NCBI RefSeq assembly: GCF_016862915.1
Contig: NZ_BONW01000019.1
Location: forward strand, 186,001-250,000
Direction of reading: 5' to 3'
Source: Plantactinospora endophytica
Lineage (GTDB): Bacteria; Actinomycetota; Actinomycetes; Mycobacteriales; Micromonosporaceae
DNA: 64,000 nt
The notes under the pieces were generated by a model. That model saw only the letters and a list, made by a program, of their open reading frames with translations, did not search any database and had not been told where the DNA came from. Both the position numbers and the translations under genes were made by a program. This document shows, piece by piece, positions 24,509-25,445 of the stretch; the stretch's first letter is position 1; every line of letters starts with the position of its first letter.

Positions 24509-25288
24509 TCAGAGGGTACGCAGGTGGAAGCCGCCGTCCACGTCGATCACCTGCCCGGTGCTGAACGGCAGCAGGTCGGTGGCGACCGCCACGACGGCCC
24601 GGCCGACGTCGTCGGGCTGTCCCCAGCGGCGGATCGGGGTCAGCCCCTGGTTGAAGATGAGATCGTCGTACCGGGCCTTCACCGGGCCGGTCATGTCGGT
24701 CTCGATCACGCCGGGCCGGATCTCGTAGACGTTGATCCCGTGCTCGGCCAGTCGGGTGGCGTAGAGCTGGGCGGTCATCGCCAGTCCGGCCTTGGTCACG
24801 CAGTAGTCGCCCCGGTTGACGCTGGCGGTGTACGCGCTGATCGACGAGATCACCACGATCTTCGGCCGTTCGACCCGGCCGGCCGCCTGCTGCGCGATCA
24901 TCGTGTTCGCGACGAGCTGGATCAGGAAGTACGGCCCCTTGAGGTTGATGTCGACCAACCGGTCGAACGACTCCTCACCGGCCTCCAGCAGGTCCGCCCG
25001 GACGCTCGGTGCCACCCCGGCGTTGCTGACCAGCAGGTCGATCCGGCCGAACGCCGCCGTCGTCTCGTCGACCAGGTGCCGCCGGTCCTCGGCCCGGGAC
25101 ACGTCGGCCCGGACCAGGTGTGCCCGGCCGCCCCGGGCCTCGACCTCCTTGCCGACCTCGGCCGCCGCGTCGGCGTTGCTGGCGTAGTTGACCACGACGT
25201 CGTAGCCCGCGCCGGCCAGCGCGACCACCACACCCCGCCCGATACCCCGCGACCCACCGGTCACCACGGCTACGGGACGGCTGCTCAT
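24509..25288 (-). CDS. Short-chain dehydrogenase/reductase (FabG-like)
   Basis: A 259-residue classical SDR: NAD(P) binding TGGSRGIG at 9-16, NAG in SNAGV, catalytic Ser in ISSISAY and Tyr-x-x-x-Lys in YCVTKAG. The overall pattern fits 3-ketoacyl-ACP reductase-like enzymes, and in this context it more likely acts on a sugar or sugar-derived ketone. It ends the minus-strand run headed by the GH88 hydrolase, with two short coupled ORFs in between, so it probably processes the GH88 product. The ATG overlaps the stop of the second mini-ORF (ATGA). Confidence 0.88.
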
Positions 25289-25368
25289 GCCGCCCCTCCA
25301 CTGCGTTCCGGGCCGTCATGAGGCTCATCCGCACTGAGCTGGCTGATTCGCTCGCTCCGCTTGCTCAT
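25285..25368 (-). CDS. Mini-ORF 2 of the tandem coupled repeat
   Basis: A 27-residue frame beginning [17 protein letters not shown] and ending PERSGGAA. Its ATG overlaps the stop of mini-ORF 1 and its own stop overlaps the ATG of the SDR gene (ATGA at both junctions). It is a near copy of mini-ORF 1, about 80 bases away. [13 protein letters not shown] peptides recur as repeats in actinomycetes to my knowledge, so this may be a mobile intergenic repeat whose frame preserves coupling. Whether the peptide itself has a role is unknown. Confidence 0.45.
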
Positions 25369-25445
25369 GCCGCCCCTCCACTGCGTTCCGGGCCGTCCTG
25401 AGCCTCAACACTGAGCTGGCTGATCCGCTCGCTGCGCTCGCTCAC
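25365..25445 (-). CDS. Mini-ORF 1 of the tandem coupled repeat
   Basis: A 26-residue frame reading [17 protein letters not shown] then GPERSGGAA. Its GTG overlaps the TGA of the GH88 gene and its TGA overlaps the ATG of mini-ORF 2. There is no separate ribosome binding site, so it depends on coupling from GH88. The amino-acid sequence is far better preserved between the two copies than expected for a spacer. It may be a translation-relay linker or a repeat element inserted in frame. Confidence 0.45.
   Translation of the reverse strand: MSERSERISQLSVEAQDGPERSGGAA

Follow-up and report, generated by a model that had tools for sequence, protein, structure and literature searches.

REP/BIME sequences are mobilised by RAYT (Y1) transposases, occupy untranslated gaps and are not known to carry an open frame, and hairpins that hide a start codon can be opened by upstream translation. 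Mycobacterial interspersed repetitive units (MIRUs) were reportedly described by Supply et al. in 1997 (Mol Microbiol 26:991). A review presents MIRUs as mobile elements that land on start codons (DTGA) and bring an ORF whose coupling to the host gene is at -4 nt; it also has short coupling ORFs serving as ribosome deliverers (PMC12548453). Two further papers give a senX3-regX3 region with 77-bp and 53-bp MIRUs, for which promoter activity is reported (PMC4213456), and a length of 53 bp for MIRU292 (PMC7977185).

Here we describe a repeat that is likely to be of this type, a mobile unit sitting at start codons and relaying ribosomes to the host gene by termination-reinitiation. The initial annotation of the locus had suggested a system absent from the usual descriptions, which does not hold, as the same principle is already described for mycobacterial MIRUs in the review (PMC12548453), and this is therefore not a new system. 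What is new here is an actinomycete-wide MIRU-like family, differently built and with a predicted hairpin that includes the downstream start codon; also new are the conservation of register over peptide, the empty sites, and a hairpin that may make the relay obligatory. Among the listed matches of the open-licence literature we found no comparable repeat outside mycobacteria, which is weak evidence of absence. As with short coupling ORFs, a short ORF brings a ribosome to an overlapped start codon; unlike those ORFs and start-hiding hairpins, which are fixed leaders or engineered parts, the repeat described here is dispersed.

The GH88-like/SDR junction

The units lie on the minus strand of the window (the whole stretch of DNA that was analysed, 64,000 nucleotides from Plantactinospora endophytica), with the following features:

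25442..26839, minus strand: GH88-like upstream gene (unsaturated glucuronyl hydrolase type), from its ORF and a PDB sequence match
25444-25442, minus strand: TGA stop of the GH88-like gene, overlapping the GTG of mini-ORF 1
25369..25445, minus strand: repeat unit 1, 77 bp (2 mod 3)
25365..25445, minus strand: mini-ORF 1, 26 aa, GTG start, with its TGA stop within the ATGA of unit 2
25375..25379, minus strand: GGAGG, Shine-Dalgarno-like by sequence reading, at the 3' end of unit 1
25289..25368, minus strand: repeat unit 2, 80 bp (2 mod 3)
25285..25368, minus strand: mini-ORF 2, 27 aa, ATG start, with its TGA stop within the ATGA of the SDR gene
25284..25322, minus strand: predicted hairpin of unit 2, CTCATGACGGC... 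paired with ...GGCGGCATGAG, including the SDR start codon
25295..25299, minus strand: GGAGG, Shine-Dalgarno-like by sequence reading, at the 3' end of unit 2, before the SDR gene
24509..25288, minus strand: SDR downstream gene (3-ketoacyl-ACP reductase type), from Pfam and NCBIfam

The downstream gene, which starts with the ATG at 25288 of the minus strand, is identified as an SDR by Pfam (PF13561, E 2.2e-50) and NCBIfam (NF009386, 325 bits against a cut-off of 250). The GH88 label of the upstream gene comes from a PDB sequence match to the unsaturated glucuronyl hydrolase 1vd5 (E 6.9e-11), and the gene has zero matches in Pfam (E <= 0.001) and NCBIfam (E <= 0.1). The tetranucleotides GTGA, ATGA and ATGA form three 4-nt overlaps between the GH88-like gene, unit 1, unit 2 and the SDR gene, and the tandem mini-ORFs with these stop/start overlaps, as first annotated between the two genes, were thus confirmed on the minus strand. 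The annotation's peptides of 26-27 residues also proved right (26 and 27 aa), and its two 80-base repeats needed correction, unit 1 being 77 bp and unit 2 80 bp. A search of Rfam over 24900-25900 (E <= 1) returned a single match, outside the units and under its gathering score. The 161 bp of the two units had no match in the phage and plasmid collections (E 0.01, words of 11), and a phage or plasmid was dropped as a candidate vehicle on these grounds.

Dispersal, placement and register

Used as a query, the 161 bp found 18 places at E < 1e-3 in the window's own genome (G000), the window's place included, and a sequence-only model built from the 18 own units found 27 at the same threshold; these own-genome copies stand at unrelated genes, with E down to 1e-23. 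The own model matched 29 of 61 genomes (own included), of which 26 were among the 37 of the same family and 3 among the 24 of other families; the seven genomes that represent the window's genus have 9 to 58 matches each. In an even draw of the class it matched 28/296 genomes, and the exact 5' pattern occurred in at least 119 stretches across actinomycete genera, those among the matches listed being Micromonospora, Plantactinospora, Catellatospora, Phytohabitans, Planosporangium, Paractinoplanes, Nocardia, Nonomuraea, Microbispora, Planomonospora, Kitasatospora, Streptomyces, Nocardioides, Aeromicrobium and others. The early suggestion that SERSERI-like units recur in actinomycetes is therefore borne out by matches in the own family, at class level and in named genera, and the idea of a mobile repeat fits what was found, namely a repeat that is dispersed, looks mobile and spans stop and start codons with an open frame.

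With genes called by open frame and third-position GC only, 118 of the 125 arrays had a coding-like gene start at their right end, and the right start was ATG in 122. Upstream of the same 125 arrays, a same-strand gene stop stood in 4-nt overlap in 62 (a raw count, which does not by itself indicate a preference), another stop lay within 30 nt in 11 and at -150..-31 in 25, and for the other 27 no same-strand gene stop was detected within -150..+40. The class-level set gave a 4-nt stop/start overlap in 69/121, and its left and right start-codon bases agreed more often than expected by chance (n=95: 59 A-A, 15 G-G, 13 G-A, 8 A-G; Fisher 4e-5). As read from the sequences, the insertion target is the start codon (RTGA), with stop/start overlaps as a large subset. 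The portable linker between coupled genes that had been proposed is right in that the open frame bridges stop and start, and too narrow in its target, because about half of the insertions (all but 62/125) lie off stop/start overlaps; the accompanying expectation that copies would sit at in-frame gene junctions gave way in part, at the 27/125 arrays with no detectable upstream gene stop.

All three junctions tested were filled in some species of the genus and empty in others. The GH88-like/SDR junction carries two units in G000, one in G003 and none in the five other genus genomes; at ilvB-ilvN, G000 and G004 have the junction filled and the remaining five genomes have it empty (2/7 filled); and the nuoF-nuoG junction holds a full unit in G000 and G005, is empty in G001, G003 and G006, reduced to a 26-nt remnant in register (2 mod 3) in G004 (L147), and gave no match in G002. 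The names ilvB, ilvN, nuoF and nuoG, and likewise those of a Pup ligase and a RibBA-type fusion, are backed by Pfam. Where a site is empty, the sequence at the start is RTGAG (the exception being GTGAC at the SDR gene of G004), and after insertion the left copy can remain GTG with ATG at the right. Mobility would explain this pattern of filled and empty sites. Remnants of 17-26 nt (L147, L042, L037, L044) begin with RTG and close in register on the RTGA that follows, and deletions within units seem to preserve the register.

Two placements recur beyond the genus. An ilvN-like gene start, as read by eye, comes after a unit in Planomonospora (L289, L321), in genome G259 of family f41 (L377) and at further loci (L029, L354, L364 and L390 complete the loci listed); most genomes of the window's genus lack a unit there, and the ilvN-like start may have been targeted more than once. 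In three named Streptomyces (L308, L310, L330) and at L335, a gene with a TRHVPVM start, which we take to be rsmH-like, has in front of it a unit whose upstream flank is conserved; the unit may have been long fixed at these loci.

Register was scored in two sets, which have 2 units in common. The first comprised 168 units from loci L029-L251 and the window, collected with a profile of the 18 own units after exclusion of duplicates and of hits near a locus end; 27 without a recognisable end were excluded from the frame counts, and of the 141 retained two are probably from outside the family. For class-level units the downstream gene or the next unit fixed the right end, independently of length, and 21 of 121 pattern hits without a downstream end were excluded from the frame counts. 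In the first set the length was 2 mod 3 in 132/141 units with both ends (34/43 once the 98 units of 80 bp were removed), the mini-ORF stop lay at +1 of the next start in 131/141, and the register was broken in 9/141; in the class-level set 96/100 were 2 mod 3, with the stop at +1 in 95. The rows of these counts are not independent, since orthologous sites in related genomes were counted separately, which makes chance look too unlikely. Of the end-less class-level hits, 11/21 stay open for at least 400 nt, as though only their 5' end were left and were read through into a gene.

Between its ends the frame stays open. None of 97 distinct 80-mers has an in-frame stop (expected 22% when the same substitutions are moved randomly, and 11% when columns are resampled independently), and in these 80-mers the entropy at codon positions 1/2/3 is 0.82/0.91/0.93. 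Single-base differences are synonymous in 237/715 cases in frame 0, vs. 171/675 and 146/614 in the other frames, an excess that leaves room for a weak constraint on the peptide. With reading anchored in the 5' frame, the 3' motif of the class-level set lies in frame 0 in 36 units and in other frames in 18 (42/96 unplaceable), and in the first set it lies in one frame in 77/82 placed units (50/132 unplaceable). These comparisons, in which orthologous rows again lack independence, suggest that the frame is kept open while the peptide drifts and that register is preserved much more than peptide, and we read them as hosts selecting the relay far more than the peptide, whose function appears unlikely from the codon-position entropy and the frameshifted peptides.

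Units that lack the 2 mod 3 register or the 3' end are seen to leave an MSERSER-type N-terminal extension on the host protein. At L035 (own contig, C44:99647-99732) an 81-bp unit of the own genome forms an in-frame fusion with a RibBA-type protein (Pfam), and at L343 a unit is read, by eye, into the host gene.

Comparison with MIRUs and the search for a mobiliser

A route through TIGR01258 to a MIRU-bearing control genome yielded no mycobacterium among the named matching controls. The MIRU292 core was found in 68/148 genomes of genus g38 (taken as Mycobacterium), with 0 for the reversed pattern, and none of the 28 genomes that the own model matched in the class draw belongs to g38. On the broad model of the family MIRU292 scored 4.5 bits, equalled or beaten by 25/2000 shuffles, and a sequence kinship between the family and MIRUs is thus only suggestive.

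In construction the two have much in common. Both are short, dispersed, multi-copy repeats at start codons with a coupled ORF at -4 nt, both form tandem arrays with a GGAGGAG-type 3' end and open mini-ORFs that end on the next RTGA, and the GAGCGCAGCGA motif occurs in similar register in both; the lengths of MIRU292 (53 bp; PMC7977185) and of the reported 77-bp MIRU (PMC4213456) are 2 mod 3 as well. Among the MIRU units read, 18/31 were open and in register (a register that the reading itself required), 12 of the 18 being 53 bp, and 14/15 last units stood ahead of a coding-like start. We also observed that MIRU cores (L410-L439) are open in at least two reading frames, both of which are used (13 and 5).

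They also differ. The sequence differs over most of the unit, and the register of MIRU arrays is the looser, with listed arrays spaced at 46 to 55 bp being 2 mod 3 in 11/20 vs. 12/16 for the tandem units of the repeat here. In MIRUs the DTGANN is repeated on both sides, identically in 10/15 units (five of these 15 from two tandem arrays). A start-codon hairpin is predicted for the repeat here and is absent in MIRUs, in which the start codon is predicted to be unpaired at 0.70 vs. 0.72 when shuffled (15 units).

Using PF01797 (Y1) as the transposase family searched, we found it at E <= 1e-5 in 9/61 genomes. Eight genomes have more than 20 repeat matches (G000, G002, G003, G005, G012, G027, G028, G030), and among these a Y1 transposase occurs only in G027 and, in part, in G002; G030 and G005, the richest in copies, have no PF01797 at E <= 1e-5. 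A Y1/RAYT transposase as the resident mobiliser was rejected, since PF01797 does not follow copy number. The repeat is like REP/BIME sequences in being short, dispersed, hairpin-bearing and apparently non-autonomous; it differs from them in having an open frame, which REPs are not known to have, and in having no link to Y1 transposases.

Predicted hairpin, rival explanations and proposed relay

Shine-Dalgarno pairing was stronger than -4 kcal/mol at 97% of right starts and 79% of left starts, vs. 34% of random RTG (125 arrays), and leaderless left starts were discarded as a candidate, TANNNT lying within 14 nt upstream in only 3/125 arrays. The hairpin predicted for the 80-bp unit pairs columns 47-59 with 73-85, host start codon included, and pairing holds in 77% of cells (148 distinct units) vs. 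27-50% when slid. Its inner stem pairs exceed shuffles (e.g. 71 vs. 48%, 77 vs. 46%); of the five outermost pairs one alone beats all shuffles, barely, and none does in the 52 class-level units alone. The predicted unpairedness of the start codon is 0.12 vs. 0.58 in shuffled units (98 units), 0.21 vs. 0.53 with flanks, and 0.24 vs. 0.45 with own vs. swapped 3' ends (100 class-level units). The arm base that faces the first base of the start is C in 6/11 GTG starts and in 13/137 ATG starts (Fisher 6e-4, related rows counted separately). At the window locus the hairpin is closed in a -45..+6 window and open in -60..+30, with the SDR start at 0.95, and in -60..+30 windows of filled vs. empty sites at three junctions the start codon is not clearly more hidden when filled.

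Several other explanations of the units were weighed against the relay. The hairpin could be a DNA feature for movement, by single-strand or fold-back transposition, with the pairing of the start codon a by-product of RTGAG insertion and without any translational role; we regard this as quite possible, if somewhat short of an even chance, as signs of target duplication, with the agreement of left and right start bases at class level, speak for it and the stem is preserved as expected of a hairpin recognised by a transposase. However, the arm base tracks the first base of the host start codon (Fisher 6e-4), which points to upkeep after insertion, and the copy-rich G000, G003, G005, G012, G028 and G030 contain no PF01797 at E <= 1e-5. 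A role of the repeats as intergenic promoters or processing sites, with the open frame secondary, is a view put forward for the senX3-regX3 MIRUs and draws on the promoter activity reported for that MIRU-bearing intergenic region (PMC4213456); it predicts neither the 2 mod 3 lengths nor the absence of stops nor the exact fit to start codons, and we consider it improbable.

It is more improbable still, to the point that we would be surprised by it, that the mini-ORF encodes a functional small protein whose mobility is incidental. All 97 distinct 80-mers have an open frame, the slight excess of synonymous differences in frame 0 would agree with such a protein, and the SERSER start recurs; yet the excess of third-position variation is small, internal frameshifts that keep the register alter the peptide (in 18/54 class-level units, though in only 5/82 of the first set), and open MIRU cores divide between two reading frames (13 and 5). 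Chance or a local tandem duplication of a GC-rich intergenic stretch, which the tandem arrangement of both window copies might have suggested, is already refuted by dispersed copies at unrelated genes (E down to 1e-23) together with empty orthologous sites, and its probability is negligible.

In the relay that we favour, a mobile element would enter at a start codon (RTGA) and leave RTGAG behind at its left end, so that the previous initiation signal, in many cases the upstream gene's end, would feed the mini-ORF of 26-27 residues, and the ATGAG placed at the right end would become the new start of the host gene. The element would supply its own ATG and a strong Shine-Dalgarno just ahead of it. 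Because the frame is nearly always open and the length nearly always 2 mod 3, the TGA of the mini-ORF would overlap the host ATG, and a ribosome coming from the mini-ORF would terminate at the host start codon and restart there, which would let the element spread without killing the gene. The unit would also fold the start codon into its hairpin; ribosomes translating the mini-ORF would melt this structure, and the host gene would therefore probably become dependent on translation of the mini-ORF. Position, frame, openness, Shine-Dalgarno and filled and empty sites can be read directly in the DNA; the hairpin over the start codon is a prediction, and we infer both termination-reinitiation on the host start and the role of the hairpin as a gate. 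The fullest version, a mobile translational gate in which an 80-bp element captures a start codon, hides it in a covarying hairpin and frees it only to mini-ORF ribosomes, is a tentative proposal that we expect to fail rather more readily than to hold. If it were true, independently started genes would become obligately coupled, the stoichiometry of operons would be rewired between sister species, and decayed elements would leave MSERSER tags on proteins.

These results suggest that the MIRU strategy is general in actinomycetes and not confined to mycobacteria, with a second, longer family present at core genes (ilvN, nuoG, a Pup ligase). Sister species with and without a unit at one and the same junction are natural experiments on translational coupling. 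The family may further account for the MSERSER N-termini and the small ORFs of annotated actinomycete genomes, and it calls for caution in start-site annotation in actinomycetes.
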